64,000 bases of DNA from positions 12,884,042 to 12,948,041 of the forward strand of contig CM055272.1 in assembly GCA_029237695.1 (NCBI GenBank), written 5' to 3'. The position numbers were made by a program, and so were the translations under genes. Shown one piece after another: positions 46,151-64,000 of the stretch (its first letter is position 1; each line of letters begins with the position of its first letter). The notes under the pieces were generated by a model. It did not search any database. It saw nothing but the letters and a program-made list of their open reading frames with translations, and had not been told where the DNA came from. The stretch comes from Conchocele bisecta (taxonomy: Eukaryota; Mollusca; Bivalvia; Lucinida; Thyasiridae).

Positions 46151-48890
46151 TGGTGGAATGTATCCATAAAAAAACGGCAACTGGGCCGGTCTGGTACCAG
46201 TACGTGTTTATGGGCGAGTTTATTCCCCGGAATAGTTATAATATAAAACGGATACAAAACGGAACTCACAAATGCGGCCATAAGTTATGCCACCTATGAC
46301 CGATTTTATTATATGATGTGTCAAATTAAAGCTATTAGCTTTAATGTGGTATATATATATGAACTAATTTGGATATACCGAAAGTTATAAATTTGTCCAT
46401 TGAAAAATACATTTTCTTAGGGTTTTTTTCTCCCTGAAAACGGTGCTCAGATTCCCCGAAACTTATTAATGTATTAAACAATTATATTTCTTAAAACAGT
46501 GTAGCAATTTGAGATGCACCTCATTAAAGGTGATATTCGTAGTTTTATTTTGATATATTGATTTGTATAATTGGTCATTGTGAACAGTAGTTTAATGTAA
46601 AAAAAAAATCAGCGATAATCCCCGGAACTCTTAATAAATTACACATCCCTTTACCTATTACAATATATTCTATGTTATTTTAAAGATGAGTCGCATAGCT
46701 TTAATTTGATATATTGGTCGATATATATGGAGATTTCTAAAGTATGAAACTATTCGCTTTAATAATGCAATTTTCATGGCCTTGTTTATCGCCAAATTAT
46801 CAACTGGCGGTCAATTGTGAAAAGGACAGGGCCGCATTGATTCCCATCCCACGTGTGCTCTAAACATAAATATTGTGTATATATAGTATTCTGGTAAGAT
46901 ATAAAGGCATCTTTAAGGATTGCACATATTATCACCGCAAAACAAAATGCGATATAAGTGAACATCAAAATATATAAGATAAATTTGGAATATCAAAATA
47001 ATTATAAACTCCAGATAAGAGCAGATAACACGGTCTGGGCCCATACGCACAGTACTACAACGTGATTTCCAAAGAAGTGAATGAACGCTTGCATAACGTT
47101 GAACGTGTTATACCCTGGGTTCGCGTAGTGAGTCAGCCGGATCTTACCGATACATTCGGGCATACCAGACGCGATATGCTTATTCGTGATGGTCTTAATC
47201 TCAGCCCAACGGGAACGTCTGCAGTTGCCAGCAACATACAAACGACGGTGATGATTCATTTGAACGATATGCCCGTGGCTACAGAGCAACCATCTTATAA
47301 ACAGCAACCTATGGGACCACTTACGTACAGTCAGGTCGTTGAACACTGTGAACATGTTACAACTCAGGACAGACCAACTACATCGAATTATGGAGGAACA
47401 CCCCAGAATATCGTACCCAACACCACCGCCAACACAGCCGCCACCCATCAGAAGCAACCACACCAGTCTTCGAGAATAGCAGAATCGCGGAAAACGCCAC
47501 TTACCAAATCTTCAAGTAGCAACAGATTACACGTGTTAAAATAGAGAATACGAAGAACTTTATGAGACTGCTTCCGATCTGAGTTTGCACTGGTCACACA
47601 CGCAATAAAGCTAGATCAACAGAAATCCCGATTCAGGGTCCATATTGTCGCAATTGTTTATGTAATATTAATTATGGATGTTGTCACCAGTCAAACGCAT
47701 AATCGTCTAGCGGACTCATGCAGTCTGATAAGGATCTATACTTATGTTTAGTATAATTATGGCTGAATCACTGAATGAATGGCGAACAGTGCAGACCCTG
47801 ATCAGACTGTACGTATAGGGAGGTTGATTTGTAGCTACATTGGTGAACATTTCAATACGCCCGAATTCCCCAGTCACTGTCCCAGTCACGTTTATACATT
47901 ATGATCGGGATCTACACTAATCACAATTTGACCGACGCAGTTTCAGAAGGAACCAACTAAGTCCATGCTCTATCAGTATCTATACTTATATGTAGAAGAA
48001 TGCCATTCGCGATTCATTGATTGAATAGCGAACAGACCTTGATCAGAATGTACATATAGATGTAGGCTGATTTATATACGTAATACGCCTGTATCGGCTG
48101 ACTGAACGCTCTTTGGTGGGTCAATATTCGTTAATTTCAATTCACCTATTTTGTAACTTCAAATTGGTCGATCTTTATGTTTTATACATCATATTAAAAC
48201 ACAGAGATACACATTTTATTTGGTGTATTATTGGTCATGATTGATTATACATTATTGAAATTAGAATGGTTGATAAAGGTTCCGGGGATTGTAAATACTG
48301 TTAAACCGAATCCGGCACTGCGAGTTTTAGTAAAAATTTTTTTTTTTTTTTTTTTTTTTACACTTTTCGTCGGTTAATCGTTACAGTCAATGTACTAACT
48401 TAAAGCATATAGACTAATGTTCAATATGACATGATTTTGCAATTTTGATAACACAGTTTAGAAATTATGAACGGTTACGTGGGTTCCGGGGAATGTAAGC
48501 TCCATTTTAACGTTGACAAGGAATGTAAATTTTGCCAAATTCAATTGAATATTTATATTAATTACACACATCGTAGACAAACATATTATGCACCAAATAA
48601 AAATGTGGAGACATACCTTTAATTTGATACATTTGCCATAAAAATAGAAATTATAAAATATGAATTATAACCGTTAAAAAAGGTTCCGTTTTTTTTACCG
48701 CATAATAAGCATGATAAGTGCAAGAGTTCCGGCGAATAATCCTATCACGTGTTTATCTGGTAGACGAATAGGTGTTTTTGATTGGGAATTGTTTTTGATT
48801 GGGAAAAAACACGTACCGGGGAGATACCGGTTTTCGTGTCCTTAAGGAAACAAATGTAAAATAATGTACCGGCCTGCTATACAGTGATCA
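46150..48890. mobile_element. Putative element with degenerate long inverted repeats
   Basis: The left block (46150-46790) contains ATTCCCCGGAA-type motifs at about 46224, 46451 and 46617. The right block (48240-48890) has the same motif inverted (GGTTCCGGGGAATGT, GGTTCCGGGGATTGT) at about 48286, 48485 and, weaker, 48683 and 48727. Outer parts also match inverted (GTACGTGTTTATGGG against the complement of AAAAAACACGTACCGGGG). The blocks are built of roughly 165-230 bp subrepeats. An SGNH-like frame lies between. Superfamily and exact ends unknown. Confidence 0.5.
47026..47544 (+). CDS. SGNH-hydrolase-like C-terminal fragment
   Basis: The open frame runs from a TAA near 47026 to 47544 (about 170 codons, no clear ATG start). 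It reads YYNVISKEVNERL, VERVIPWVRVVSQPD, then RRDMLIRDGLNLSPTGTSAV. This is the pattern of the last catalytic block of SGNH/GDSL esterase-like domains in many invertebrate and retroelement proteins (RDGLHLS). The catalytic histidine of DGLH is asparagine here, so the domain may be inactive. The remaining 80 residues are polar (QPHQSSR, SSSSNRLH) without a recognised domain. No paired upstream exon with GDS was found; it could be a terminal exon or a captured fragment. Confidence 0.45.
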
Positions 48891-49041
48891 CAATGGCATC
48901 CGACTATTGGTTTCGCCGAAGTTCGGTAAATATCCATTGTAAATATCAATGATATATAACTAGGTCTGTTGGATAATATTACATAGTAGCGATCGCTAAT
49001 CAGGTCCAGTTATAATAAGTAGTTTACCTGTAAACTTTCCG
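47545..49041. other. Non-coding stretch left of the Polinton
   Basis: It contains three degenerate CTGATNAGNNTCTA-type hairpin-family traces (47715-48080), the right inverted-repeat block described separately and a poly-T run (48339-48359). No gene. Confidence 0.6.
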
Positions 49042-49186
49042 AGTAGTAATGGGTAGCACTATGGGATACTTTTTTAACATGTGTTTTTTACATAGACATT
49101 TTTTACCGGAACACCGGGTGTCTATGTAAAAAACACATGTTAAAAAAGTACCCCATAGGTGCCACCCCTTATTACTCCCATTATCA
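49042..49186. repeat. Long hairpin at the presumed left end of the Polinton
   Basis: The arms of about 52 bp read AGTAATGGGTAGCACTATGG onward and, inverted, AGTAATAAGGGGTGGCACCT onward. The inner 35 bp are nearly perfect (TACTTTTTTAACATGTGTTT). The GGGGTGGCAC motif recurs inverted in the adjacent tandem units (49187-49390). The AGTA start and position just outside the first gene make it a candidate for the terminal inverted-repeat region; the other end of the element is not in the window. Confidence 0.6.
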
Positions 49187-49390
49187 GGGGTGGAAACTTC
49201 TTGTATTACGCCATAGTGCCACCCCTGAACCATTTTTGTTGAAAATTCGTGAAATATATCCGGGTGGAAACTTCTTGTATTACCCCATAGTGCCACCCTG
49301 AACCATTTTGTTGGAGATTCGTGAAATTTATCCGGGTGGAAACTTCTTGTATTACGCTATAGTGCCACCCCTGAACCAATCGTTTTTGTA
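49187..49390. repeat. Three tandem units of about 73 bp
   Basis: The units share GGTGGAAACTTCTTGTATTA, ATAGTGCCACCC and TGAACCATTTTTGTTG, beginning near 49190, 49262 and 49335. They sit between the hairpin and the first Polinton gene, as subterminal repeats often do. Confidence 0.85.
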
Positions 49391-49437
49391 TTCAACACGA
49401 GCAGTATGTAAGGTATTCATTTCTTGAGAAAGTGTAT

Positions 49438-49453
49438 AGCCCTGAAAAGGGCT
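49438..49453 (-). terminator. Histone-type 3' stem-loop, SL1
   Basis: On the - strand the sequence is AGCCCTTTTCAGGGCT: a 6-bp stem and TTTC loop, 16 nt after the stop of the Cys-rich gene. It is preceded by the A-rich flank ACAAC and followed about 14 nt later by CAAGAAATGA, a purine-rich tract where the U7 snRNA target lies in histone pre-mRNAs. No AATAAA is nearby. Confidence 0.75.
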
Positions 49454-49469
49454 GTTGTCTTTTAGTAAA

Positions 49470-49682
49470 CTATGTAGTGTTCAGGTTACTCCACATACAA
49501 TCGACGACTATTTGGCAGGCCTCACAAATTTCGAGGTCTTTAAGGTCCTCTTCTTCAAAAAAGCCTTCGTCGAGCTCTGGACAATTGTGTTCTTCCCCGT
49601 GAGTGTCCAACACTGCATAGCATTTTCTACACTATATGTAACAGGACTCACTGCACATAGAGCATTTACCGTTCTTCTGCAT
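49470..49682 (-). pseudogene. Small Cys-rich (zinc-ribbon-like) protein with in-frame TAG
   Basis: A 70-codon frame is interrupted by TAG at codon 17. It begins MQKNGKCSMCSESC and, after the stop, reads CRKCYAVLDTHGEEHNC, then an acidic stretch (DEGFFEEEDLKDLE) and ICEACQIVVDC. Ten cysteines in CxxC-type pairs plus two histidines suggest at least two zinc-binding sites. The frame is supported by context: promoter cassette A lies 60 bp upstream on the same strand and a histone-type stem-loop follows the stop. Function unknown; the TAG may be a mutation or an error. Confidence 0.55.
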
Positions 49683-49740
49683 TCTTATGTAGTTGGTTGA
49701 ACAGTTGAATGACTAATGAAATATAGTTGTATGTTTTTTA

Positions 49741-49833
49741 CTTTTATACACATCAGAAGGATTGACCTACTTTTGATAGCTTAGTCATTTTTCAGATTTT
49801 CGACCAATCAGAAAGCGCATTGTAAACGCGTTT
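49741..49833 (-). promoter_or_regulatory. Promoter cassette A, copy 1
   Basis: The - strand carries, in order, CGCTTTCTGATTGGTCG (inverted CCAAT box), AAAAATGACTAAGCTATC, AAAAGTAGGTCAATCCTTCT and GTATAAAAG (TATA box at 49741-49748). It is nearly identical to 51834-51926 and 57656-57751, and drives the Cys-rich gene to its left. Confidence 0.8.
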
Positions 49834-50101
49834 TGTGATATCCTAGTGTACTGTTCCTGTATACAATTTTCAAATATTTTTGACAACTCCAATATTATCA
49901 AATACATATGAAAATGGCCTAGAAATAAGTTTTCACCCACTTCTGACAACTCTAATATTGACAAAGGTTAATGAAAATAAATATTGATTGTAAATCAATA
50001 TATTGGTATTTTTCAATTTATGGTGGGGAAAATTGAATACGAAACATGTAAAGTTTTAATAATATTTTATTGAACAATAACATATTTTACAACATGTATG
50101 T
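49834..50101. other. Intergenic, with AATAAA 3' cassette on the - strand
   Basis: AT-rich spacer. The - strand at 50058-50096 reads TGTAAAATATGTTATTGTTC followed by AATAAAATATT, the polyadenylation cassette shared with 51945-51981 and 57100-57136. It would end the gene at 50102-50641. Confidence 0.7.
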
Positions 50102-50641
50102 TTAACATTCAAGAGGCATGATCTCTGTCCATGTATCGTGATCACTGTCCATGAAGCGTGAACAATGGGAGCACACACACATTGATTCAGTCTCACTAAT
50201 CTGTACTATTTCCATTGGTACAATCTCTCTCTGTCCAGGAACCGTGAGCAATGGGAGCCTTAGCCCTGATATTGTTTCAGTCGTTACACTATTCCGTAAG
50301 TTCGGTTTACATCGTTTAAATAAGAAATTCACAATATTGTCATTTTCAACAACTTCGTTTCTCCATTGTTCAAATGTTAATTGTTCTACTTTAATCCTTG
50401 AATCTTTGAAGAACCCCGTTGTTACTAATAGGGCTTCCTTGAATTCATCAAACATATCTATTTTCTCTAATTCATCCTTGATGATCCCGGTTGTAAGATA
50501 TTTTTCATTTGATACTTTTAGTTTGAAAGCAAGTATCAATGCTTTCCTGTATGCTATGCGATTTAATAGATCTGTCAGAGGATTCATTGTTATTGGTTTC
50601 CTGATTGCTATATGATTTATTAGATCTGTCAGAGGATTCAT
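50102..50641 (-). CDS. Uncharacterised Polinton protein with duplicated N-terminus
   Basis: 179 codons. The first 18 residues (MNPLTDLINHIAIRKPIT) are repeated as MNPLTDLLNRIAYRKALI, a 54-bp tandem duplication, so the original start is probably the second ATG near 50587. The middle is helical and charged (DELEKIDMFDEFKEALLVTT, EQWRNEVVENDNIVNFLFKR). The C-terminus has ESMCVCSHCSRF, a possible zinc site. A TATAAAAG box lies about 50 bp upstream (50690-50700) and the AATAAA cassette follows. I do not recognise the family. Confidence 0.6.
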   Translation of the reverse strand: MNPLTDLINHIAIRKPITMNPLTDLLNRIAYRKALILAFKLKVSNEKYLTTGIIKDELEKIDMFDEFKEALLVTTGFFKDSRIKVEQLTFEQWRNEVVENDNIVNFLFKRCKPNLRNSVTTETISGLRLPLLTVPGQREIVPMEIVQISETESMCVCSHCSRFMDSDHDTWTEIMPLEC

Positions 50642-50717
50642 TGTTTCTTCAACTGTGTCTATTCATAGAATGATTCAGTTATAATCCGTTCCTACTTTTA
50701 TAGTCTTTAATATCAAT

Positions 50718-51053
50718 CTATTTCCACGATTGTTTGACTTGTTTTTTCAACTGTTCCAACCACGATTCATTGAATCTAAAACGGATTTTGTTTTTAATTT
50801 GTATCCATAGTCTGTATGCTTCCAATTTCTCTTGATAGTCCAATGCCATATCTTTGAGAATTGGATACCATTCTTCCATAATTTTATAGGGATCTAATTT
50901 CTGTAGAGCTGTCAATATGAATAAATTTGTTTGTTCATCTTGATCTGTGAATAAGCACAGTTGATGTCGTAATTGACTTGGATGTTCAACCTGACATCCA
51001 TAACAATTATCATTTACTTCTTTCTTAATTAATGATTGAAGTTGTTCAACCAT
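50718..51053 (-). CDS. Uncharacterised Polinton protein with CxGC...HPSQ motif
   Basis: 111 codons: IKKEVNDNCYGCQVEHPSQL then RHQLCLF, followed by a helical part (LFILTALQKLDPYKIMEEWY and LDYQEKLEAYRLW) and a basic tail. The CYGC-x4-HPSQ-x2-H-x2-C pattern looks like a small zinc-binding head, and I have the impression of similar short proteins in other animal Polintons, but have no function for it. It ends just before the TATA box of the next - strand gene. A start at the ATG of MVEQL is chosen; another ATG 8 nt upstream is out of frame. Confidence 0.6.
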   Translation of the reverse strand: MVEQLQSLIKKEVNDNCYGCQVEHPSQLRHQLCLFTDQDEQTNLFILTALQKLDPYKIMEEWYPILKDMALDYQEKLEAYRLWIQIKNKIRFRFNESWLEQLKKQVKQSWK

Positions 51054-51309
51054 ACATCCATTGAATGTGTCATGTATTGTCTTTCTTTGTCATAGTACTT
51101 CTCGTGATTTCTTTATCAGACAAACATCGTTTTGTAACCACAACTCATAATTATGCCCCATCATTTTTATTGTTTATTATCTAAAAGTACTGTATAATAT
51201 TTGTTGTTTCTAGAGCGAATACCTTGAAGATAGTGGCTTATGACAAAATGCAAAACGTTTATATAGGTACAACTGATTATAAGTTTTTTCTATTCTAAAT
51301 ATTTGTATT
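51054..51309. other. Intergenic spacer
   Basis: AT-rich; no conserved cassette recognised other than the stem-loop that follows at 51310. Confidence 0.5.
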
Positions 51310-51325
51310 GACCCTGAAAAGGGCC
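51310..51325 (-). terminator. Histone-type 3' stem-loop, SL2
   Basis: The - strand reads GGCCCTTTTCAGGGTC, with 5' flank GACAAAA and 3' flank AATAC. The 6-bp stem includes one G-T pair; the loop is TTTC. It lies 54 nt past the stop of the 141-aa gene, and a purine tract (AGAATAGAAAAAA) begins about 15 nt later. Confidence 0.75.
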
Positions 51326-51379
51326 TTTTGTCTTGATCGTCTAATTCAAGTTTGCTGTTTATCATACTTGTTCACTCTT

Positions 51380-51805
51380 TCAATGTATTATTTCATGGCC
51401 ATCACAGTCCCGTGATCCACAGCTTCTACATGTTAAGAGAAATCTGTGTGTAGACTTTTTGCTGGGTTTTCCAGGAATCGCAAATGATGGTGTCGGAGTT
51501 CGTCGGATCTCCTCATCCCAGTCTTCTTGCTGTGGTTGTACACTCGCTCTCTCATCATTACCCCAGTTTTCTGTAGGCTTCGACATCGTGTTCGATGAAG
51601 CATGTGTCCTGATGATATCGTTCATCAAATCATCGAACTTGTTCCAGTTATATACGAAGCTATTCGAGGCTTCTCTTGCTTCAAATTTCAAATTATAGTA
51701 AGGAATTAAATTCCTAACCACGTACTCATGAAATAAATATATTAAAGTTATCATCCTAGATGTGTAGAGACAGGGTTGTACTCTGAACAATGTAATGCTT
51801 CTCAT
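51380..51805 (-). CDS. Uncharacterised Polinton protein with C-terminal Cys/His cluster
   Basis: 141 codons. The N-terminus is hydrophobic and aromatic (RMITLIYLFHEYVVRNLIPY). The middle is polar (NWGNDERASVQPQQEDWDEE) and the end, TCRSCGSRDCDGHEI, is a likely zinc-binding cluster. It follows promoter cassette A copy 2, with the ATG 29 bp after the TATA box, and is closed by stem-loop SL2. Its first codons (AGCATTACATTGTTCAGAGT) are repeated in the 5' leader of the gene at 58339. No family recognised. Confidence 0.6.
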   Translation of the reverse strand: MRSITLFRVQPCLYTSRMITLIYLFHEYVVRNLIPYYNLKFEAREASNSFVYNWNKFDDLMNDIIRTHASSNTMSKPTENWGNDERASVQPQQEDWDEEIRRTPTPSFAIPGKPSKKSTHRFLLTCRSCGSRDCDGHEIIH

Positions 51806-51833
51806 CGAATGTAAATTAATGATTTTATGATCG

Positions 51834-51926
51834 CCTTTTATACCATCAGAAGGATTGACCTACTTTTGGTAGTTTAGTCATTTTTCAGATTTTCGTCCAA
51901 TCAGAAAGCGTGTTGTAAACACGTTT
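51834..51926 (-). promoter_or_regulatory. Promoter cassette A, copy 2
   Basis: On the - strand: CGCTTTCTGATTGGACG, CTGAAAAATGACTAAACTAC, AAAAGTAGGTCAATCCTTCT, GGTATAAAAGG. The 35 bp after the TATA box (CGATCATAAAATCATTAATT and TTACATTCGAT) are also identical to those after cassette copy 4 at 58871, so the transcription start region is shared. Confidence 0.85.
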
Positions 51927-51944
51927 TTACAGTTAAACTTGTTT

Positions 51945-51981
51945 ATTTAACAATATTTTATTGAACAACAATATATTTACA
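51945..51981 (-). terminator. AATAAA 3' cassette (F-box gene)
   Basis: The - strand reads TGTAAATATATTGTTGTTCA then ATAAAATATTGTTAAAT, identical over about 30 bp to 57100-57136 on the + strand. It lies 76 bp past the stop of the F-box-like gene. Confidence 0.8.
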
Positions 51982-52056
51982 CGTTTTCGTTTTAGAATTA
52001 AAAACAATACATAATATCGCATGTACACTGCTTATCCGTTTATACACGTAAGGCTA

Positions 52057-52314
52057 TTAAACATTGTGTATTATATCTTGCGAAAATTTATATACACCAA
52101 ATGGCCTCATGTTGTAAACTGTGAATGAGTGGCCCCTAAAGTCTTCCTTTAGCATGGCAGTCCAAAACGCAGCATCTTCAATCATGCGTTTTGCACGCTC
52201 GTCAGCGCGTGCGAGACTTTTGGCATCACTCTCCGACAGATACAATTTTATTAACATAACCAGTAACTCCTCTGGTAGCACAGCTAACCGACTGTAGTTA
52301 TTAAATGTGTCCAT
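52057..52314 (-). CDS. F-box-like small protein
   Basis: 85 codons. Residues 13-58 read LPEELLVMLIKLYLSESDAK, then SLARADERAKRMIEDAAFW and TAMLKEDF. The LPxELL...YL...D...R...D..FW....DF pattern is that of an F-box, the Skp1-binding motif of SCF ubiquitin ligases; its placement near the N-terminus fits. The remaining 27 residues carry no recognisable substrate-binding repeat. It sits just downstream of PolB on the same strand and ends with the AATAAA cassette. The call is by pattern only. Confidence 0.5.
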   Translation of the reverse strand: MDTFNNYSRLAVLPEELLVMLIKLYLSESDAKSLARADERAKRMIEDAAFWTAMLKEDFRGHSFTVYNMRPFGVYKFSQDIIHNV

Positions 52315-52317
52315 GAC

Positions 52318-52347
52318 TGAATTTCTGGATATTCAAACAACAATTCT
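52318..52347. repeat. 30-bp exact duplicate of a PolB segment
   Basis: The 30 bp starting TGAATTTCTGGATATTCAAA are identical to 55388-55417, which is coding sequence of PolB (the LLFEYPEIQF region). Here the copy lies in the 5' leader of the F-box-like gene. Confidence 0.9.
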
Positions 52348-52368
52348 TAATACACAGTGTATATTCAA

Positions 52369-55300
52369 TCAAAGTCTCAATGTGTTGTAACCGTATGGTA
52401 CAGTATTGAAATTGTCAACAATGACACGTTTTGTGTACACAGACCTAAATGTCTTGCTTTGACATTCACTCGTTACTGTTCTGTTTGCATGTCTCCGGAT
52501 TTTACATGCATACACAACTTTCACTTCGGTACTTCGGTCCTCTGCACATTGAACATACGTATCAAAGTTAACTACTTGACTTGTGTTGTAATCGAGTGTC
52601 AGTCCTTTAACTTTGCATTTCGATTTTATTTCCCCAGCTTTTGTTAGCAACTTGTATGCATAACTCTTTGGTCCTAAACCCCTAAAACTTATTATTTTAT
52701 TTCCGGGTTCTTCATCAGTCCATTTACCAAGTCTACTATTGATTATGGGAGGGTTCCATGAATTCTGTTTGTGTATGTACATACAACTGTCTGTATCGAA
52801 ATACAACACACGCTCATTTATTTTTTCCAAAACACTGTATAGTTCAAGTCTTGCATATGCTGTTACATATGATCCCACTACAACGTTTGATGTTGCATGG
52901 GATTCAATGTGTTCAAGTCTAGTTTCATAGTTAACCAATATGAATGGACATTCATTATCAAATAGTTCTACTGTTTTGTTTTTACCATTATACATGGATT
53001 TGAAATCAAATCAAAATATTTTGAAGGATTATTGATGTATTCCGTTTGTGTCATGATTTCACGTTGTGCCAATTTACCCCATAAGCAATTTAACATAATC
53101 TTGGCAAATGCTCTACGTCCAGTATTTGTTTGTATGTTTGATGGATCAAGACAAATACCTTCAGCTTCTTCATAGTCCTTAACAAATTTTTCTTTGTCTT
53201 TTTCTGTTACACACCATCCTGGATAACCACTTGCTTCTTGTTTGATTTTAAGAAAATTGTCCACATACCCCGAGAAAAAATCATTAGATTTTTCCGAAAA
53301 ATGCCATACTTCATATACGTCTAATAACGTATAGCCACAGTCCAATGCTTTAAACAATTCTATTGACACCCATGTACCAACCAAAGCTCTTTCTTCAATT
53401 GTATGTGCACACTTTGTAGAACTTTCTTCTCCACATGTTCTACATAGCAAAAACATGAGTTTGTTATTACAATGTGTTGGTAACACAGGATGAAATAGAT
53501 TAGTCGGGGGGAGAACTTTACATTTTATTAAACCCTCATACTGTCGGATGTTTTCTACATCAATTTCTTTTGTTAAAATATCGGGGTGTCCTATCGGATA
53601 TTCTTTGTGTTTACATACAAATGGATACAATGAACAAATATCAATATATTTGATTTCATCATCTGAAATTTCTTCAATATCATATTTAATTTTTATACCA
53701 TTACAACGGCCACCAAACAATCCTTCCCTAGGTTCAATCGGATCACAGTTTGGAAAGAATTGTTCGATCATCTTTTTGTATTCTTTATCAGTTTTCATTT
53801 TCAAATCAAACTCATGTTCCCACATAGTGTGAATTTTGTAACCACTTACACTGAAATATTCCAATCTTTCAAATGTTTGTGAATATAAATTTTGCATTGT
53901 TTCACCATTTATAGGGTTTTTTAGATTACGATTTGGGTAACATTTAGGACAACCATGCCATAGGTCCCCAAGAAACTCATAGATAGTATTTGATTCTTTG
54001 TGAAACCCATCTACAGTATAAGGACCAATTTGATATTCTCCACCATTTTTTGCATGTTGGATAACAATATTGTTTTCGTGTGCAATACTTTGTATCCATC
54101 GAATACCTTTCATTGAAAATTTGCGTTTAATCGGATCTCTGCTTGAAATAATACCGATCTGATTACTTGGTATATATTTGTTACGCCAAGCTTTGTTACA
54201 TGCATCAGCGATTGTACTGGCTTCTAGAAACGGATCTATACCCCCATATTCCAGGAATACCTTCCTGAATTCTCCACAACCACGTCTCAAAATATCTACA
54301 TCCGATCGACAATATTTTTCCATTTCTTGTTTGAAATTGAAACAATCGTTGTTTTCCACACGTTCGTTATACCATGATAAAAACTTTTCCCTAACAGTTA
54401 TCCCCATTGAATCTGGTTTATAATAAGAAACATCAACGTATGGGCCAACATAAGCGGCAAATTTATCAGTATTTGCCCAATGTGGAAAATACCCCTTAGT
54501 CATTTCTTTCAATTCAAAGGTTTCTGGAAATTTTTGCCAATCCTGAATTTATGAAATTATATAAATCAATCAATCGTATACCTCCAGCTTCCATAACCAT
54601 GATGTTATTGCCGTTCATTATTACCTTAGGTCGAAACATCCCCTTTTCAATGAGATGGTGAAGAATGAATTGGCCATCATATGCTTTGAAATTATGTGCA
54701 ATAGCTGTAGCACCTTTATGTTGTTTTAAAAACAACCAATTACAAAATTCTGTCAAAGTATTTTTTCCTTCAAATACTACTTCTCTTCCTTCAGGAAACC
54801 GACTACAACATTCCCAATTGAATTATATTGGTTCATTGATACATTCATCACAAGCTCTGTGTGCAATACAATAGTTAGGAATGTGCACCCCCGTGTCTTG
54901 TTGACATTCAAAATCATAAAATATGAAAAACGGTTTGTGATCATCTTCTTCAGTTTTGCTTTTATACTGTTGAATATGACATTTATGGTCAAAATTAACA
55001 ATCTCTTTACAAAATTTACATTTCTTCTTTCCTTTGCATGTATGATTCTTCTTGGAGTCGGCAAACTGAGCTCCACATTTGCCACAACATTTTATGAGTT
55101 GACAAATTGATTTATTTTCTCGTCCTTCAATTTGCTTATGATTTGCAAAACACGTTACACTATAAAATGTCCTGAGACAATCTTTACACTTGATACAATT
55201 TATCACATGACATTTTGTTTTGGAACGACATGCCTTACACGAAGTAGGGCATATATGTGTTTCACGATTTTGATAACCAACATTAAACATCTCAAAATAG

Positions 55301-56190
55301 TAAGAACATCCAAGAAATCCTACGATATTTGTAATAGAATCATAGTGATCTTGATTATAGAATACATGTATTACTTTGCTGTAGAATTGAATTTCTGGAT
55401 ATTCAAACAACAATTCTGTTCTCACATGTTGTTGATGAATCTTGATCACATATTCTGGATACATATATTGTTGTATTTTCTTGTATTCTTCAATTCCACA
55501 AGCTTTTTGTGGTGAAATTCCAACTTCATTCAATAATTTCTCTGTTTCAATACGTTGTAACGATCTTCTGGAATCTCTGAATATTTCCCACCACATATTC
55601 CATGTTGAAGAAACTTCTCGGTCAGCATGACATTTTCCAACAACAATAGCCCGGGCTAAACACATACTGTCTTTTGAATTTTCAATTTTTACAATAGTTT
55701 TCTTTTTTTTCGTGAAAACTCGAGAATCAGTTTCAGAGGTCGTCTTCTTTCTTCCAGAACCTGTTGGCATTTTGGTAAACGTTGTTTCGATTGTCATCTC
55801 ACCATCGTTCAAATTAAAATCCATATTCGATTGCATAACTTTTTCTATTTCTTGTAACAATATGTTCCCATTCAAATCTTCAACATTCAAGAATGGAATC
55901 GGTATCCCCATCTTTAATGCAGGGTGATTTAATGTTACCCTGATTTTGTCATGTGGATCGCCATCAATTCGTTCGATGATTTGATGAACGATATCATCAA
56001 ATAATACCCCAACGAAATTTTGAGGGTGTTCGTCTACATCAAATTTCTTGAATGTTGTTTTAAAAACTGATCATTCAGTTCTGAATTTTCTTGATCTTCG
56101 ACTTTTCTCTTGTATAAGATCATAAAATCTTCTAACATCTGATGACTCTTCGTTTTCACTCTCGGTGTCCGAGTCTGGTACAAGTGGCAT
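52369..56190 (-). pseudogene. polB: Protein-primed type B DNA polymerase (PolB), broken
   Basis: About 1,270 codons on the - strand from ATG at 56190. The N-terminal part has a Cys-rich zinc region (CPTSCKACRSKTKC, CIKCKDC). Exonuclease motifs follow: FYDFEC (Exo I), HNFKAYDGQF (Exo II) and YCRSDVD (Exo III). Then come polymerase motif A DICSLYP, motif B KIMLNCLWGK and motif C YFDTDS. All catalytic motifs are visible. Breaks: TGA at codon 40 (56071-56073), TAA at 54823-54825, a frameshift near 54540 in a short A run and another near 52990. Protein-primed PolB replicates Polintons. Its start faces the zinc-knuckle gene across a shared promoter. Confidence 0.9.
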
Positions 56191-56216
56191 GTTGAATTTT
56201 ATAATAAAGTATTAAT

Positions 56217-56315
56217 CAATTTGCAACAGCTTATATACTATCGTTACATCGTGACGTCCATAAAAGAAGCCACAAATTCCATATGGTCATCATTAGTTTA
56301 CTGAACTCTGAAGCG
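56217..56315. promoter_or_regulatory. Promoter cassette B, copy 1 (divergent)
   Basis: This stretch runs CAATTTGCAACAGC, then CTATCGTTACATCGTGACGT, CATAAAAGAAGCCACAAATT and CCATATGGTCATCATTAGTT. It is over 90% identical to 58204-58302. TGACGTC is a perfect CRE/ATF half-palindrome. On the + strand CATAAAAG may act as TATA box for 56318; on the - strand TATATAAG (56230-56237) may serve PolB, whose ATG is 40 bp away. Confidence 0.75.
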
Positions 56316-56317
56316 AC

Positions 56318-57035
56318 ATGGACTCTCAAGCGACAGAACGCTCTTCCATTCAACTACAAAAACACGAGGAACATTTTGCTGACTATTTCGAAAGTATGAA
56401 ATATTGGCATAAAGGATGTGAAATGAATTTATATGTAAATCCGTTTACTCATGAAGTTGAATTCAGCAACATACCGAAAACCTATCCAATAAAACATATT
56501 GGAAACTTTGTTGGATCGTTTACATCTTACAATTATTCGGGCGACTCTGAGTACCTGATTTCTACAGGAAAGAGGTTTACAAAATTCAGCATCGATGAGA
56601 AATATGGAGGGGACGAAATATCACCTAACAGATGTTACATCTGTCAATCAACGGAGCATTGGGATAATAAATGTAGCCAGAAGCTACAAGGAAAGTACAT
56701 GGATGTGTTTGTGAATCCATATTCTCATGAAGTTCAATTTTTGGATTCTCCTAGTATTACCCAAGACCTGTGTGTCGGAAAATTCATGTCTTATTACAAC
56801 GAAGAGTCATCTGAAGCTGCCAAGAAATGTTATGTACGCTGGATGTTTTATCTGTAAATCGAAATCACATTGGGCTTGTGATTGTGACCAGAAACCCACG
56901 TCTAACACAGTGGATGTTAAGACCACAGAGAAACCAGTGAACAATCGTAAACGTAAACGCCAAGATGAACCGAGTGTTCAAATCAAGAAGAGGAAAATTG
57001 CGGTTCCAGTCAAGAAGATGAAAATTGACTTTTAG
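56318..57035 (+). pseudogene. Zinc-knuckle protein with internal duplication, frameshifted
   Basis: Two related halves. Half 1 has NLYVNPFTHEVEF and, at its end, CYICQSTEHWDNKC (CX2CX4HX4C). Half 2 has VFVNPYSHEVQF and CFICKSKSHWACDC (CX2CX4HX4C). The C-terminal tail is strongly basic (NNRKRKRQDE, IKKRKIAVPVKKMK), like a nuclear-localisation or nucleic-acid-binding tail. A frameshift near 56830 separates half 2's knuckle from the rest; the first frame stops at 56857. Retroviral Gag-like CCHC knuckles bind single-stranded nucleic acid; the role here is unknown. Promoter cassette B precedes it and the AATAAA cassette follows. Confidence 0.7.
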
Positions 57036-57099
57036 ATTTGATTGATTTATTTGTCTTGTTAAATGAATACAATTTTGAATAGACACTATGTATTACATG

Positions 57100-57136
57100 T
57101 TGTAAATATATTGTTGTTCAATAAAATATTGTTAAA
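57100..57136 (+). terminator. AATAAA 3' cassette (zinc-knuckle gene)
   Basis: TGTAAATATATTGTTGTTCA followed by ATAAAATATTGTTAAAT; about 30 bp identical to the - strand copy at 51945-51981 and similar to 50058-50096. It lies 65 bp after the stop. Confidence 0.8.
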
Positions 57137-57248
57137 TGAATACAAGTTGAAATGTATTTTCTTGTTTTGTTATTTATCATTTTTATAATTTATATGGTTA
57201 ATTCATATGATTTATAAAATGCAAGTGTTTCTTTCTGGAAAATATTGT

Positions 57249-57264
57249 GGTCCTGAAAAGGACC
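57249..57264 (-). terminator. Histone-type 3' stem-loop, SL3
   Basis: The - strand reads GGTCCTTTTCAGGACC with 5' flank ATCAAAC and 3' flank ACAAT: a perfect 6-bp stem, loop TTTC. It starts 13 nt after the stop of the 66-aa gene. About 12 nt downstream is CCAGAAAGAAAC, close to the classic U7-pairing purine element (CAAGAAAGA). Confidence 0.82.
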
Positions 57265-57277
57265 GTTTGATCTCTGT

Positions 57278-57478
57278 CTAATAGAATCCAGACAGATCAG
57301 GATATAAGTTATTCAATGTAACTTTCCAAACAATTTTTTGTTTGGAAGGCCAATGATAACCACGTCTTGCAAATAATAGTTGTAATAATTCTTTATTTCT
57401 CTCTTTTTCTTCATTAACATCATTTTTCCTGGACAATACAATGTTTCTCAAACGGTGGAAGAATTTCTTGATCTGCAT
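57278..57478 (-). CDS. Small basic Polinton protein
   Basis: 66 codons, rich in Lys/Arg: KKFFHRLRNIVLSRKND, NEEKERNKELLQLLFARRG, then WPSKQKIVWKV. Probably helical; no family recognised. It is supported as a gene by the stem-loop directly after its stop. Upstream on the - strand there are several CCAAT boxes (57540-57605) but only a weak TATA-like TATAGTATT near 57506-57523. Confidence 0.5.
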   Translation of the reverse strand: MQIKKFFHRLRNIVLSRKNDVNEEKERNKELLQLLFARRGYHWPSKQKIVWKVTLNNLYPDLSGFY

Positions 57479-57655
57479 TCTGGTATGTAAGAATGAATAG
57501 AATGAATACTATACGCTTTAGATCCTGAAATGATTTCATCCATCATTTCATTGGCTAAAAATTAGAGGAATTGATTGGTTAAGGATTCTGTCCCTCTCAT
57601 TGGATGATTTGCAATCCGTTTTTACAGCCAAGCTTGTGTAAACAAACTTTGTTCA

Positions 57656-57751
57656 CAAAACGCGTTTTGCAACACGCTTTCTGATTGGACGAAAACCTGA
57701 AAAATGACTAAACTACCAAAAGTAGGTCAATCCGTTTGATGGGTATAAAAG
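57656..57751 (+). promoter_or_regulatory. Promoter cassette A, copy 3
   Basis: CAACACGCTTTCTGATTGG, CTGAAAAATGACTAAACTAC, AAAAGTAGGTCAATCC and GGGTATAAAAG (TATA box 57744-57751) on the + strand, 50 bp before the ATG at 57801. It faces away from the 66-aa gene, so the 57479-57655 spacer is a divergent intergenic region. Confidence 0.85.
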
Positions 57752-57800
57752 CATGTTTTTTTAACACATACTTCACATGTTTCATTGAACACTCAAAGAA

Positions 57801-58073
57801 ATGAATACCGATCGAAGCAATATGATGGCACGGAGGATCGCAGATTTGGTTGAAGTCGTAGGGTCAATGCAGAAAGACATAGAAACGCTGCAAATGGTTA
57901 CAGCTGACCTGTTGAGGAGAATAAAGGAACAACCAAAGCCTGGTTACAAAGAAATGGAAATGGAGGACGGAAAGAGTTTTACTACAGAATTAAAACCTGA
58001 CACTACAGGCGTGTTGAGAGTTAAAACTCGAGAATCAAACAACAAATGGCGCCGCACTACCATTGAATATTAG
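57801..58073 (+). CDS. Small coiled-coil Polinton protein
   Basis: 90 codons. Residues 10-45 (RRIADLVEVVGSMQKDIETL, QMVTADLLRRIKE) have heptad-like hydrophobic spacing, so a short coiled coil is likely. The C-terminal half is polar (GKSFTTELKPDTTGVLRVKT). The frame is intact, with promoter cassette A 50 bp upstream and stem-loop SL4 30 bp after the stop. Function unknown. Confidence 0.65.
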   Translation: MNTDRSNMMARRIADLVEVVGSMQKDIETLQMVTADLLRRIKEQPKPGYKEMEMEDGKSFTTELKPDTTGVLRVKTRESNNKWRRTTIEY

Positions 58074-58103
58074 TTTGTACAGGTGTACACTCTAAACAAA
58101 AAC

Positions 58104-58119
58104 GGCCCTTTTCAGGGCC
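58104..58119 (+). terminator. Histone-type 3' stem-loop, SL4 (best match)
   Basis: GGCCCTTTTCAGGGCC with 5' flank CAAAAAC and 3' flank ACCACA matches the metazoan histone stem-loop at stem, loop and both flanks. A purine tract (CGAAAAGATT) lies about 14 nt further on, where the histone downstream element would be. It begins 30 nt after the stop codon, within the usual range for histone genes. Confidence 0.85.
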
Positions 58120-58203
58120 ACCACACATTATTACGAAAAGATTACTTTGCAATTTATATCCTAATAACTTTGTATATTGTATCATTAGTTGTTAAACATT
58201 AAG

Positions 58204-58302
58204 CAATTTGCAACAGCTTCTATACTATCGTTACATCGTGACGTTTATAAAAGAAGCCACAAATTCCATATGGTCATCATTAGTCTACTGAACTCTGAAA
58301 CG
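58204..58302 (+). promoter_or_regulatory. Promoter cassette B, copy 2
   Basis: Same order as copy 1: CAATTTGCAACAGC, CTATCGTTACATCGTGACGT, TTATAAAAGAAGCCACAAAT and CCATATGGTCATCATTAGTC. Here the + strand has a full TATAAAAG, and the - strand TATATAAG of copy 1 is changed to TATAGAAG, fitting a one-way promoter for the gene at 58339. Confidence 0.8.
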
Positions 58303-58338
58303 AAAGCATTACATTGTTCAGAGTACAAACCTGATAAA

Positions 58339-58780
58339 ATGGATCAACTAAGAAAACATTGTGACCAGCATCCGGAAGCCGAAGAATGTAATTGTTTCGA
58401 TTTCCTCAACAATTGTTCTATAGGCATATTAAACGGAGAATACGCTATTAATAATGTAAAAATTTATAAATCACCCAAATATCAATATTATCCTTTCATC
58501 GGGTACATAACAAACAATTCTAGATTTATACCTTTTGGTATTTGTCCAAAGATAACTGTGATAGAAAAAAAGAAAGATTTATAGGTTAGTAAGTTCTAGA
58601 ACATACGGAGAGGATAGTCAGATTTATTTCGATAAGGATCTTAAACCTTTGCTTCATATACACAGTCATAAAATTCCTTTTTCAGGGGATTTGAACATAG
58701 AAACTAAAATTATTAAGAGTTATCCCAGTATCCCTCAATTAAATGTGAGAAAAGAGTACTGTAAATGGAATATTGGTTAG
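58339..58780 (+). pseudogene. Uncharacterised Polinton protein, one frameshift
   Basis: The frame starts MDQLRKHCDQHPEAEECNCF and continues through GEYAINNVKIYKSPKYQYYP to a stop at 58584. Shifting one base in the run GAAAAAAAGAAAG restores sensible protein (YRLVSSRTYGEDSQIYFDKD, VRKEYCKWNIG) to a stop at 58780, giving about 147 residues in total. No family recognised; two CxC-like sites near the start. The leader 58315-58338 copies the first coding bases of the gene at 51805. The long homopolymer at the break makes sequencing error plausible. Confidence 0.6.
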
Positions 58781-58785
58781 CAGCT

Positions 58786-58868
58786 ATCGTTTTGTAAGAC
58801 ACACTGTGATTGGTCACTTGATTTTTATCAATTTCTAAGTAGGTCAATCCTTCTGATGGGTATAAAAG
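58786..58868 (+). promoter_or_regulatory. Promoter cassette A, copy 4 (shorter)
   Basis: GTGATTGGTCACTTG (CCAAT box), then AAGTAGGTCAATCCTTCTGA and GGGTATAAAAG (TATA box 58861-58868). The middle (AAAATGACTAA) is poorly conserved, but the post-TATA sequence (CGATCATAAAATCATTAATT) matches copy 2 exactly. Confidence 0.82.
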
Positions 58869-58902
58869 ACGATCATAAAATCATTAATTTACATTCGATA
58901 CT

Positions 58903-59421
58903 ATGGCTGACAACAGAAGTTACGATTTTGTCGCTCAAGATTTTGATATATTAGCAGAGACGATGAATGAAATATATCAACCAACCTTCCAGCCACCACA
59001 ACAACAACAAATACAGCAGCAGCCAACTGTTCCTGTATACATTCCATTAGAGAAGAAGAAAGAAGATTCTATGATATTGAAAGAACTACAGAAACTGAAC
59101 AACAATACAGAAAGAATATTACAGGAACTAGAGAACATCGCATCACGACATAGTGTTCAACTGGACCGTATGACAGACACATTATCAAGGAAACTAGAGA
59201 AACAGTGTGAAAATCGGGACTTGACATTTAACACACAGCCATTGAAAGTACCTATCAAGTTGGAATTGGACAAGAAAACAGTGACACAGATCAGTCAACA
59301 TGCCGAAAGGGCCCTGTGTGATACAGTTGACGAAAAAATACATTCACATAAAAGTGGGATTGGTGCACATCGTAAACACATTCGTCCAGAAAAAGAAAAT
59401 CATTTGATTCCACGAAAATAA
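58903..59421 (+). CDS. Coiled-coil Polinton protein
   Basis: 172 codons, intact. N-terminus SYDFVAQDFDILAETMNEIY, a Gln/Pro-rich linker (FQPPQQQQIQQQPT), then a long helix with heptad pattern (MILKELQKLNNNTERILQEL and HSVQLDRMTDTLSRKLEKQC) and a basic tail. It is probably an oligomer-forming accessory or structural protein; no family recognised. Cassette A precedes it and stem-loop SL5 follows, after three tandem 3' UTR repeats. Confidence 0.65.
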   Translation: MADNRSYDFVAQDFDILAETMNEIYQPTFQPPQQQQIQQQPTVPVYIPLEKKKEDSMILKELQKLNNNTERILQELENIASRHSVQLDRMTDTLSRKLEKQCENRDLTFNTQPLKVPIKLELDKKTVTQISQHAERALCDTVDEKIHSHKSGIGAHRKHIRPEKENHLIPRK

Positions 59422-59423
59422 AA

Positions 59424-59516
59424 TAGTACCAGTACTCGTGCCTTTTTTATTTTTTAAAATTGTACCAGTACTCGTGTCTTTTTTAAAACATAAAAATAAC
59501 AGTACTCGCACCTTTA
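59424..59516. repeat. Three tandem 3' UTR repeats
   Basis: ACCAGTACTCGTGCCTTTTT-like units begin near 59428, 59463 and 59498, between the stop codon and stem-loop SL5; they push the stem-loop to 102 nt from the stop. Confidence 0.85.
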
Positions 59517-59523
59517 CCCAAAC

Positions 59524-59539
59524 GGCCCTTCTCAGGGTC
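59524..59539 (+). terminator. Histone-type 3' stem-loop, SL5
   Basis: GGCCCTTCTCAGGGTC with 5' flank CCCAAAC and 3' flank ATCCCA: a 6-bp stem with one G-T pair, loop TCTC. A purine-leaning tract (CGAACAGAA) lies about 14 nt downstream. It is the weakest of the five, but in the same position relative to gene and strand. Confidence 0.65.
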
Positions 59540-59634
59540 ATCCCAAACTATTCGAACAGAATTCCTTTTCAAATAAAACATTGCTATACACATGCTAGTA
59601 TATCATTATACATCTGGACCTTGTACTGTAAACA

Positions 59635-60301
59635 ATGGAGAACGAAGACCTATTGTCTTTGTTATTTCAACATCCCTGTAACATTTACATAGCAGGTCCA
59701 AGTGGATGTGGAAAAACTGAAATTGTACAAAAGATTATTGATTATCGCAGATTTATTTAATATTGTACCCGAAAAAATAATATGGTGTTACAAAGAATGG
59801 CAACACAGTTATACTATTATGCAAGAAAAGTTCAATTTCCTCAAATTTATTGAAGGTATCCCAGATGATGAAAATGAAATTGTATCCGATGTATCAATTC
59901 CACATCTTGTAGTATTTGATGATATGTTAGGAGAAAAAGATGCAGAAAAAATAAAATTGTGGTTTACAAGAAAAGGTCATCATAGAAATTCAAGTGTAAT
60001 ATATATTACACAAAATATGTTTCAACAAAATAAATCGAGTAGAACTATAAGTCTTAATTCTCGTTACATGATTTTATTTAGAAATGAACGTGATGGGTTA
60101 CAAATTAAAACATTATCACGTCAAATGCAAAGTCCACACTTAATTTCAGCCTACAATGATGCTACTTGTCAGGAACATGGTTATTTGTTAATTGATTTTC
60201 AATCACGAATTAAAAAACAATTTCGTTTAAGAAGTGACATTTTTCATCGCTGGATTACAGATAAGAATGTTAGAGGACCTAGTATTTATTCTCCAATATA
60301 G
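59635..60301 (+). pseudogene. A32/FtsK-type DNA packaging ATPase, one frameshift
   Basis: From ATG 59635 the frame reads NIYIAGPSGCGKTEIVQ, a Walker A P-loop (GPSGCGKT, residues 21-28), and stops at 59757. The next frame (to 60301) continues with FNIVPEKIIWCYKEWQ, VSIPHLVVFDDMLGEKDAEK (Walker B VVFDD), the HHRNSSVIYITQNMF sensor-like strand and RYMILFRNERD. Together they make a complete ATPase of about 220 residues of the poxvirus A32-like family conserved in Polintons, which pump DNA into capsids. One extra base near 59742 accounts for the shift. Confidence 0.88.
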
Positions 60302-60343
60302 TAATATAGATATCAGTATTGTACTTTCTATCAAGGTGCTAAC

Positions 60344-61309
60344 ATGGCTTTCTCATACACATCAGGAAATATTATTCATGCTTTAAGAAATTTGAGTGAC
60401 TTACAAGAGAAATAATATTGAAATCTGGATTAAAAGAGATATTGAAATGGTTTTCAATAGCTGCTCAAAATATAGTTGAAAATAAAATAAAATTACCAAA
60501 ACAAACAGTGCGTTTTATAGAAAAAAATAAAAAAAGATGTTAAACAATTAGCGGATCCTACAGTTGATGATGATACAAAGAAAAAAATAATATTAAAACC
60601 TGGTGGTGGAGGATTTTTAGGTGGTGTAATTATTAGAAGTTTACTTCGTTGGACAGGTACAAAAAACGTGAAAAATAGAAAACTAACCAAAAAACAAACT
60701 AAAAAGAAAACAATTAAAAAACAAAAGAAAACACGAAATAAAAAATCTCAAAAGAAAACAACTAAAAAGAAAACAACTGAAAAGCAAAATGAATCTTCAA
60801 GATTTTCTTCAATGTCTAGTATGTCTACAAATCCTAGTCCTGTTAATTCTCGTAGATCTATATCACCGTTTCATACACCCTCATCGACTGGAAAACCTCA
60901 GTTAACATCGACACCAATTTCCTTTAGATCTCCACAATTATCATTTACATCAACTTCTAACAAATCTGGATCATCATACAATGCATCTTTCCCCAGTAAT
61001 TCTGGTTCAATTGAGCGACAAACTCAAAAAAAAAAGAAGTACAAGTATACCCCTGAAATTGAAAATTGGTTTAGACTTGTTAATAAAGCAACAAAAGAAC
61101 ATGAAAAACTGTTACAGGAATATAATGCATTGGATGAACATCCAATAGGTAGGTTTTCACCGTTAAGAACACCTTTGAGATCTCCTAAAACCAAACAAGC
61201 TGTCAGAAACAAACTTATTCAAAATGAAAAGGAAATAAAACATCTAAAAGATTTTGCGTTTAAAAATCCAGAATTAAGAGTAAAAATTAAAAGGTACTTA
61301 GGTGTATAA
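60344..61309 (+). pseudogene. PX-like basic protein 1, two compensating frameshifts
   Basis: It begins MAFSYTSGNIIHALRNLSDL, shifts frame near 60411, reads LKSGLKEILKWFSIAAQNIV, and returns to the first frame near 60525 in an A run (VKQLADPTVDDD, then KPGGGGFLGGVIIRSLLR). It continues with a Lys/Arg-rich stretch (KKQTKKKTIKKQKK), a Ser/Pro-rich linker with RSISPFHTPSS, and a C-terminal domain EIENWFRLVNKATKEHEKLL...KIKRYLGV. The LADP...KKKI...GGGGFL block resembles the small basic glycine-hydrophobic proteins of Polintons (PX-like, core-protein-like). About 320 residues. Likely a DNA-binding virion core component; inference only. Confidence 0.6.
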
Positions 61310-61365
61310 AATACAGTTATTAATTAATTTTGTATCATTCAATATAAAGTATTGTTAGTATAAAG

Positions 61366-62448: not shown

Positions 62449-63548
62449 AGCATAAAGAGAAGAAACTTAATTCATTACTAAAGAAAATATATTATGATCC
62501 AAAAAGTTAAATTGCCTACACAAGTGCAAAACACTTGTATGATTCAATTAAACGAATAAACACATTTTCAGATGTTAGATTAAAACATATACAAGAATGG
62601 TTGAGTAGACAGAAAACATATACACTTCATAAACAAATTCAAAGACGTTTTACACGTCGTAAGACAATAGTAGGAGGTATCGATCAACAATGGCAAGCTG
62701 ATTTGGCAGATATGCAACAATTCTCAGGCGAAAATAAGAATCAAAGATATCTATTGAGTGTAATAGATGTATTTTCAAAATATGCCTGGGTCATGCCCCT
62801 TCCTAACAAAACGGGGAAAACATTGATTAACGTGTTTGATTTGATAATGAAAACATCAAAACGCAGGCCACGGTCTTTACAAAGCGATAAAGGAACGGAA
62901 TTTACAAATAAAGAATTTCAACATTTCTTGAAATCTAAGCACATTCATTTTTTCACAACCGAAAACCCTGAAACTAAAGCAAGTATAGTTGAACGATTTC
63001 AAAGAACTTTAAAAACACGTATGTGGAAATATTTCACATATCATCAAACTAGAAAATATATTGATATTTTACAAAATATTGTTGATGGATACAACCGAAC
63101 ATACCATCGTAGTATTAAGAGGACCCCAATTTCTGTCAATACCTCAAATGAAATTGAGGTTACACATGCATTGTATGGAATGAAACAAGCTATTTCAGCC
63201 AAAAACAAATTACATGTCGGTGATTTAGTTCGTATTAATAAAACAAAACGCACATTTGAAAAGGGTTATCTACCAAACTGGACGAAAGAATTATTTAAAA
63301 TATTTCATATTAATAAAAGTTTACAAGCAACTTATAAAATTGAAGATCTTGATGGTGAAAAAATAATGGGTACATTTTATGGAAAGGAAATTCAAGGTAT
63401 AAAAGATGATGAAATATATGAAATTGAATCAGTTCTTGCTCGACGTATAAGACGTGTAGGTAATAAAACAATCAAGGAAACTAAAGTTCGTTGGATGGGT
63501 TATCCGTCAAAGTTTGATAGTTGGATTTCAACATCAAACATAATATGA
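62433..63548 (+). pseudogene. int: Polinton integrase with chromodomain, early in-frame TAA
   Basis: From ATG 62433 the frame has TAA at codon 26 (62508-62510) right after KKIYYDPKS, then is open to 63548. The catalytic core is complete: WQADLADM (first D), LQSDKGTEF (second D) and IVERFQRTLK (E, 34 residues after the second D). An SH3-like part (LHVGDLVRINKTKRTFEKGY) follows, and the C-terminus YEIESVLARRI...VRWMGYPSKFDSWIS is a chromodomain. Retroviral-type integrase inserts Polinton DNA; a chromodomain can guide it to chromatin. A shorter product from an internal start after codon 26 would keep the whole catalytic core. Confidence 0.92.
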
Positions 63549-63826: not shown

Positions 63827-64000
63827 ATTCATTTTACGTAACCTTACTGAGTGATAGTTCTATGGATATTTATCCATCAAATATACAATGTTGTTTCAAA
63901 GTTAAATTACCTCGAACAGTTCGTATCGATAAAGAAAACTGGGAAATAGCATTAGCGGAATTAATTATTCCTTCACAGTTTTTAAATATCAACAAAGACC
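63823..64000 (+). CDS. Minor capsid (penton) protein, start only
   Basis: 59 codons before the window ends. It reads NSFYVTLLSDSSMDIYPSNI, CCFKVKLPRTVRID and ENWEIALAELIIPSQF, the typical N-terminus of Polinton minor capsid proteins (short strand, 'IYPxNxxxxFxVxLP', then 'WEIALAEL'). The start codon overlaps the membrane-protein stop. The rest, and presumably the major capsid gene, lie to the right. Confidence 0.8.
   Translation, partial: MNSFYVTLLSDSSMDIYPSNIQCCFKVKLPRTVRIDKENWEIALAELIIPSQFLNINKD

Follow-up and report, generated by a model that had tools for sequence, protein, structure and literature searches.

The Polintons of one family in the genome of the bivalve Conchocele bisecta, virus-like mobile elements, appear to express some of their genes in imitation of replication-dependent histone genes, with both ends of the histone type, a reading to which we give a probability of about 0.78. 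The copy that brought this to light lies in a stretch of 64,000 nucleotides of contig CM055272.1 (henceforth the window), in which ~49-64 kb constitute one decayed Polinton copy that extends past the window end. What is directly observed are the signals, the pairing of promoter and stem-loop at the same genes, the likeness of both to host histone genes and their presence across copies of the element. Taken over five frames, the sequence evidence argues strongly for captured histone signals.

The preliminary description of this DNA had placed five histone-type stem-loops in the element, and a search with GGYYCTTTTCAGRRCC, allowing up to two mismatches, returns exactly five matches in the 64 kb, at those places and on those strands; 0.09 are expected per window and five were reached in none of 100 shuffles. 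The whole window, and then positions 46000-64000 separately, were scanned with the covariance model of the histone 3' element (RF00032, gathering score 34 bits), and more than one copy exceeds that score, with matches at 58099-58144 (+) and 57224-57269 (-). All five share the orientation of their upstream frames, located at 49.4, 51.4, 57.3, 57.8 and 58.9 kb, and begin 16 (49438), 54 (51310), 13 (57249), 30 (58104) and 102 nt (59524) after the stop codon, within the range of 13-102 nt given earlier. The A-rich 5' flank was also borne out, reading AAAC or AAAA at four stem-loops and ACAAC at 49438. Two other points held in part: a purine-rich tract follows four of the five stem-loops, the exception being 59524, where AATAAA is found instead, 32 nt downstream; and the small gene said to precede each is an intact open reading frame (ORF) in four cases, while the 49.4-kb frame carries an in-frame stop and is decayed in this copy.

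The five units have a uniform layout. Gene 1 (49470..49682, -) is a small Cys-rich frame, zinc-ribbon-like by eye, and is followed by the stem-loop AGCCCT-TTTC-AGGGCT (49438..49453, -), recovered both by the pattern and as an RF00032 match at 49414-49458 (31.3 bits, E 1.4e-5), and by the purine-rich, histone-downstream-element-like tract CAAGAAATGA (49417..49426, -), comparable to CAAGAAAGA of the host. Gene 2, a 141-aa ORF without a Pfam family at E 0.1 (51380..51805, -), precedes GGCCCT-TTTC-AGGGTC with one G-U pair (51310..51325, -; RF00032 match 51285-51330, 24.4 bits, E 0.0051) and the purine-rich tract AGAATAGAAAAAAC (51283..51296, -). Gene 3, a 66-aa ORF (57278..57478, -) with a relative in another locus (L071, 49% over 45 aa), ends in GGTCCT-TTTC-AGGACC (57249..57264, -; 36.3 bits) and a tract resembling the histone downstream element, CCAGAAAGAAAC (57227..57238, -), whose host H4 counterpart is CAAGAAAGAAAC. 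The 90-aa ORF of gene 4 (57801..58073, +), likewise free of Pfam families at E 0.1 and with no candidate relative in a protein database search, is followed by GGCCCT-TTTC-AGGGCC (58104..58119, +; 39.0 bits, E 6.6e-8) and the downstream-element-like tract CGAAAAGA (58134..58141, +). Gene 5 (58903..59421, +) encodes 172 aa, matches no Pfam family above its cut-off and carries GGCCCT-TCTC-AGGGTC, again with one G-U pair (59524..59539, +; RF00032 match 59519-59564, 24.8 bits, E 0.0038). A Pfam scan of the four intact stem-loop ORFs, with the broken gene 1 outside its scope, found no histone family. To the left of gene 1, beside a 72-bp tandem repeat, lies a near-perfect inverted repeat (49059-49158; 40-bp arms of 98% identity, 20-nt loop), which gives rise to miRNA-family scores at 49047-49171 that all fall under the cut-offs and were discarded.

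Beyond what the preliminary description had claimed, histone-like promoters precede all five stem-loop frames. For 16 Polinton frames, with starts that we assigned ourselves, the upstream 220 nt were compared with five host histone upstream regions. Genes 1, 2 and 4 have promoters of the host H2A type, which are clearly homologous to the host histone promoter: that of gene 1 (49741..49838, -), with ATTGG, GTAGGTCAATCC and TATAAAAG, matches at 87.5% over 80 nt (E 1.7e-25), that of gene 2 (51835..51930, -) at 87% over 76 nt (E 2.5e-23) and that of gene 4 (57647..57752, +) at 89% over 91 nt (E 2.2e-30), or 82% over 109 nt to the host histone locus L004. Gene 5 has a host-H2B-like promoter element (58832..58868, +; CTAAGTAGGTCAATCCT and TATAAAAG; 95% over 20 nt, E 7e-5), a match equalled by none of 200 random host stretches, and gene 3 is preceded by a weakly H3-promoter-like stretch (57594..57623, -; 80% over 30 nt, E 8.6e-4). 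The upstream regions of the 11 Polinton frames without a stem-loop show no histone-promoter likeness (best E 0.13), so that the count stands at 5/5 stem-loop genes vs 0/11 others (Fisher p 2.3e-4, with a cut chosen after the values had been seen). A separate upstream region of 106 nt occurs in duplicate (94%; 56211-56316 and 58198-58303), common to two other Polinton genes, and may represent a further promoter class of this Polinton, distinct from the histone type.

The relationship to the H2A promoter extends over ~105 nt, at identities from 86% in the window to 97% in another copy (L007), and GTAGGTCAATCC is present on both sides; the Polinton version differs in driving Polinton ORFs and in having TATAAAAG where the host has TATATAAG. 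In local alignments of the Polinton promoter with the host H2A promoter of locus L098, identical positions number 87/90 in L007, 101/110 in L041, 90/104 in L039 and 92/107 in the window. Within the window GTAGGTCAATCC occurs four times, always before a stem-loop gene; over the window and the loci described below, host ones included, there are 105 such elements, with a TATA box within 28 nt in 100 and an intact stem-loop on the same strand within 1100 nt in 77. A genome search with the host H2A promoter, in which 40 of 254 candidates were scored, gave many matches on small contigs, spaced ~7.5-8.1 kb as in tandem arrays. At least two matches are Polinton copies (L007 and L041), and at three more places that were read (L097-L099) an H2A start lies downstream in each, in disturbed frames.

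The host genome provides the standard of comparison. Eight loci (L004, L008-L011, L067, L072 and L100) contain H2A, H2B, H3, H4 and weak H1 matches, several with disturbed frames; the core histone stem-loops examined in them have the sequence GGCCCTTTTTAGGGCC, those of H4 and H3 being accompanied by CAAGAAAGA-type tracts, and GTAGGTCAATCC also stands upstream of a host H2B gene. In L100 an H1-like stretch is followed by GGTCCTTTTCAGGACC, whose 16 nt are identical to those of the Polinton stem-loop at 57249. Like the metazoan replication-dependent histone 3' element that is served by SLBP and U7, the Polinton elements have a 6-bp stem, a 4-nt loop, an A-rich 5' flank and mostly a purine-rich tract, and their RF00032 scores are comparable, reaching 42.2 bits in L007 vs a range of 30.7-42.4 among the tested histone loci of the host. 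The differences are that a mobile element carries them, downstream of genes other than histone genes, and that their loop is UUUC at four of the five in the window and UCUC at 59524, as against UUUU in the host core histone elements examined and UUUC in the one of the H1 region; UUUU also occurs in two stem-loops within Polinton loci. The host has exons for the SLBP domain (PF15247): five matches, the best at E 9.7e-13, are spread over two chromosomes. The earlier proposal that the element borrows the host histone machinery is thus supported, at the level of sequence, by the RF00032 matches, their recurrence in copies, the host CAAGAAAGA tracts and the SLBP exons.

The same organization recurs throughout the genome. 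RF00032 was searched against all 1.89 Gb, 75 of 257,327 first-look candidates being scored, with at least 75 matches, and 68 loci covering 74 of the 75 matches were fetched. By BLAST, 60 of them (59 distinct) align with the Polinton along hundreds of bases; the other eight are L071 and seven loci with histone matches, one of which, L004, resembles the Polinton in promoter and hairpin stretches only. Every one of the 59 distinct Polinton loci has at least one intact stem-loop, which is uninformative for the first stem-loop per locus, these loci having been selected via RF00032; it is the additional ones that count, and 50 of the 59 have at least two. Histone coding sequence was found in none of the 59. 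A sample independent of the hairpin was drawn by a genome search with the packaging ATPase of the element (150 matches scored of 990 candidates), and ~630 nt upstream were read in 20 copies, 18 of 69-86% identity and two of 95%. At the 59524 position 18 of the 20 have an RF00032 match, four above the cut-off and 14 below it (E ≤0.0046), and L078 and L087 have only a degenerate 59524-type element without such a match. Since flanks are nearly identical in most of the 20 and the ATPase contains stops in many, we regard them as decayed copies of one family and not as independent lineages. In L073, whose ATPase (78% identity) is free of stops, the flank is quite unlike that of the others, yet an element of 35.3 bits is present. 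L071 has a stem-loop behind its gene 3 relative (31.0 bits, one mismatched pair, CAAGAAAGA downstream), and gene 2 relatives in L020, L024 and L046 have one within ~25 nt downstream. In L020, L030, L046 and others, two 58104-type stem-loops are separated by 470-660 nt, an arrangement that looks like the duplication of a stem-loop gene cassette. A further Polinton copy with three stem-loops (L015, G000:C8:12965233-12969750) lies ~17-22 kb past the window end.

Both stem-loops and promoters show signs of constraint. Among 15 hand-picked stem-loops, drawn from host histones, the window and further copies, pairing is kept in 98.9% of stem cells, and three of the six pairs have changes on both sides; the covariation score was reached in 0/500 shuffles and the number of doubly changed pairs in 8/500. 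The 6-bp stem is maintained through compensatory change. Divergence was compared among 45 copies, the window's included, in the finding of which the 57249 stem-loop had played no part: the difference per site is 0.020 in that stem-loop and 0.032 in the tract downstream of it, compared with 0.15 ahead of the stem-loop, 0.060 behind it and 0.054, 0.049 and 0.105 at codon positions 1-3. The corresponding value of 0.010 for the 58104 stem-loop is biased by how the copies were found. In the gene 4 promoter, GTAGGTCAATCC (0.020) and the TATA box (0.024) vary less than the promoter as a whole (0.071).

A number of observations weigh against the interpretation of these genes as histone imitations. In the 46000-64000 scan the three remaining stem-loops score 24-31 bits, below the gathering score; the number of pair types among the 15 stem-loops does not exceed that of shuffles; and the H3-like match before gene 3 is weak, being equalled by 3 of 200 random host 220-mers. 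No intact stem-loop lies within 1100 nt of 28 of the 105 GTAGGTCAATCC elements; when 26 of these were rechecked to 1900 nt, ten proved by score to have one farther off or mutated and two more by eye, two loci end too early and 12 lack a recognizable stem-loop. The ATPase-chosen sample informs on the 59524 type alone, and the 49438 and 51310 types are scarcely seen in other copies, which follows from the fetched loci being centred on the 58104 region. The expectation that related Polintons would carry such elements held for dozens of copies in the host genome but not for the single Polinton from another species that was compared: L012, the sole relative from a scan of genome contigs, found in a Bathymodiolus symbiont assembly and probably mussel DNA, has neither an RF00032 match nor GTAGGTCA. 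U7 small nuclear RNA was not found in the host genome with the Rfam model and two patterns, a miss that is no proof of absence because the Rfam U7 model found none in control genomes either; four U7 pattern matches were set aside as having no clear 3' hairpin. Being decayed, the window copy may itself be silent. Finally, all 30 stem-loops of the 59524 type have AATAAA within 110 nt, as do two similar ones classed as 'other', and none of the 30 has a GAAA[AGT] tract; in the window this possible poly(A) signal of gene 5 (59572..59577, +) speaks against a purely histone-type ending.

This last point bears on the alternative that survives best, namely that the captured signals are real and the genes nevertheless end mainly by polyadenylation, the stem-loop adding regulation, e.g. 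of translation or stability via SLBP. Besides the 59524 type, four of five stem-loops of a 'mid' type have AATAAA within 110 nt, as do five of the 11 with the host-type UUUU loop, a group of which two members lie in Polinton loci, and host histone genes carrying both signals may behave likewise. Two other types point the other way: AATAAA is found in only 1/64 of the 58104 type and 2/38 of the 57249 type, below the 14% baseline, and the GAAA[AGT] tract in 60/64 and 36/38, far over the 21% baseline. In the window AATAAA lies 131 nt behind 51310 and 197 nt behind 57249, and there is none within 400 nt behind 49438 or 58104. From these counts genes 3 and 4 look histone-like at both ends, while gene 5 has both signals or a hairpin that is just regulatory, and is probably also open to polyadenylation. 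For the set as a whole we consider this alternative unlikely, though worth keeping in mind. A poly(A)-type sequence, TTGTTCAATAAAATATT, stands at 50061-50077, 51952-51968 and 57114-57130, behind three genes without a stem-loop.

The other alternatives fare considerably worse. The Polinton might have picked up histone DNA once and spread it passively, without use, as the apparent tandem histone arrays of the host and a promoter identity of up to 97%, consistent with plain capture, would allow. Such hitchhiking leaves unexplained why promoter, ORF and stem-loop follow one another in order at five frames, on either strand and with promoters of more than one type, why the stems show compensatory changes, why the signals vary less than their flanks and why no histone coding sequence was found in the 59 distinct Polinton loci; we hold it to be very improbable. 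Slightly less probable again is transfer in the reverse direction, whereby the host histone arrays would have obtained the H2A promoter from the Polinton. Homology by itself gives no direction, but GTAGGTCAATCC is found before host H2B too, the H2A promoter is regularly spaced on many small contigs, and a second kind of promoter, H2B-like, is in use in the Polinton. Chance or convergent hairpins unrelated to histones, for which one might invoke the three stem-loops below the Rfam cut-off and the fact that single pattern matches do occur by chance in IMG/VR, can, as far as sequence goes, practically be dismissed given the 0.09 expected in the window, the recurrence in ATPase-chosen copies and the paired histone promoters.

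Under the interpretation as imitation histone genes, the Polinton would have captured host histone regulatory DNA, its promoters being taken from or modelled on host histone promoters, mostly that of H2A. In the known histone pathway, SLBP binds the stem-loop and the U7 small nuclear ribonucleoprotein (snRNP) helps in cutting the RNA; the mechanism proposed for the Polinton is modelled on this pathway together with the sequence. Host histone transcription factors would drive the stem-loop genes at the G1/S boundary, SLBP would bind the Polinton stem-loop and the U7 snRNP would pair with the downstream tract; the mRNA would then be cut shortly past the stem-loop, lack poly(A) and decay after S phase. 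The proteins of these genes would in this way be made at the very time at which DNA can be replicated in the nucleus. Expression in S phase had been suggested from the stem-loops, and the suggestion is strengthened because the same genes have histone-type promoters. It seems to us rather probable, if less so than the imitation itself, that the host H2A, H2B and perhaps H3 promoters and the SLBP/U7 stem-loops make up a regulon that ties early or host-manipulating genes to S phase and shuts them off with the histones.

The assignment of the element to Polinton/Maverick rests on a family-B DNA polymerase, an integrase and an A32-type ATPase, all of which are present. The polymerase is represented by parts in two frames (52968..54756, -; PF03175, E 5e-30 and 2.7e-4), to which the frames 52369-52995 and 54823-55911, without a Pfam match, probably also belong. 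The packaging ATPase frame (59702..60301, +) is broken near its start and matches PF04665 below the cut-off (E 0.0054); protein comparison gave 249 relatives, with PF04665 present in many. Two ATPase relatives, P0062 from this comparison and L012 from the scan of genome contigs, come from bivalve-symbiont assemblies. The integrase bears a chromodomain (62535..63548, +; PF00665, E 3.5e-14; PF00385, E 1.2e-5). The family-B DNA polymerase, chromodomain integrase and A32-type packaging ATPase are shared with Polintons/Mavericks and adintoviruses. An 85-aa frame at 52057-52314 is F-box-like by eye, without Pfam confirmation. Elsewhere in the window there is a 44-bp satellite array of ~313 copies with strong GC skew (11936-26091), and an RNase H-type frame identified by Pfam (42218-43369) and a shorter look-alike seen by eye (29946-30419) are retroelement fragments.

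IMG/VR yielded no relatives by an integrase scan or an ATPase alignment scan. Pattern matches there, to the stem-loop in three contigs and to the stem-loop with downstream tract in three, have no RF00032 match in any of the six, and the promoter-element pattern in 12 contigs is accompanied by no stem-loop by our score; we attribute both to chance. In titles and abstracts of the open-access literature, subscription journals being mostly outside this search, we found no mention, for Polintons or any other virus, of gene ends or promoters of the histone type. Passages of PMC11071296 mention histones only in the form of histone-like proteins and do not contain the term 'stem-loop'.

If the interpretation is true, a mobile element has captured the signals at either end of a class of genes under cell-cycle control. 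With 150 scored ATPase matches in one genome, this is open to ordinary RNA data. To our knowledge, only histone mRNAs end in this way in animals, a rule that would be broken here. We know of nothing on the timing of Polinton expression in animal cells, and the finding would tell when Polintons are active.

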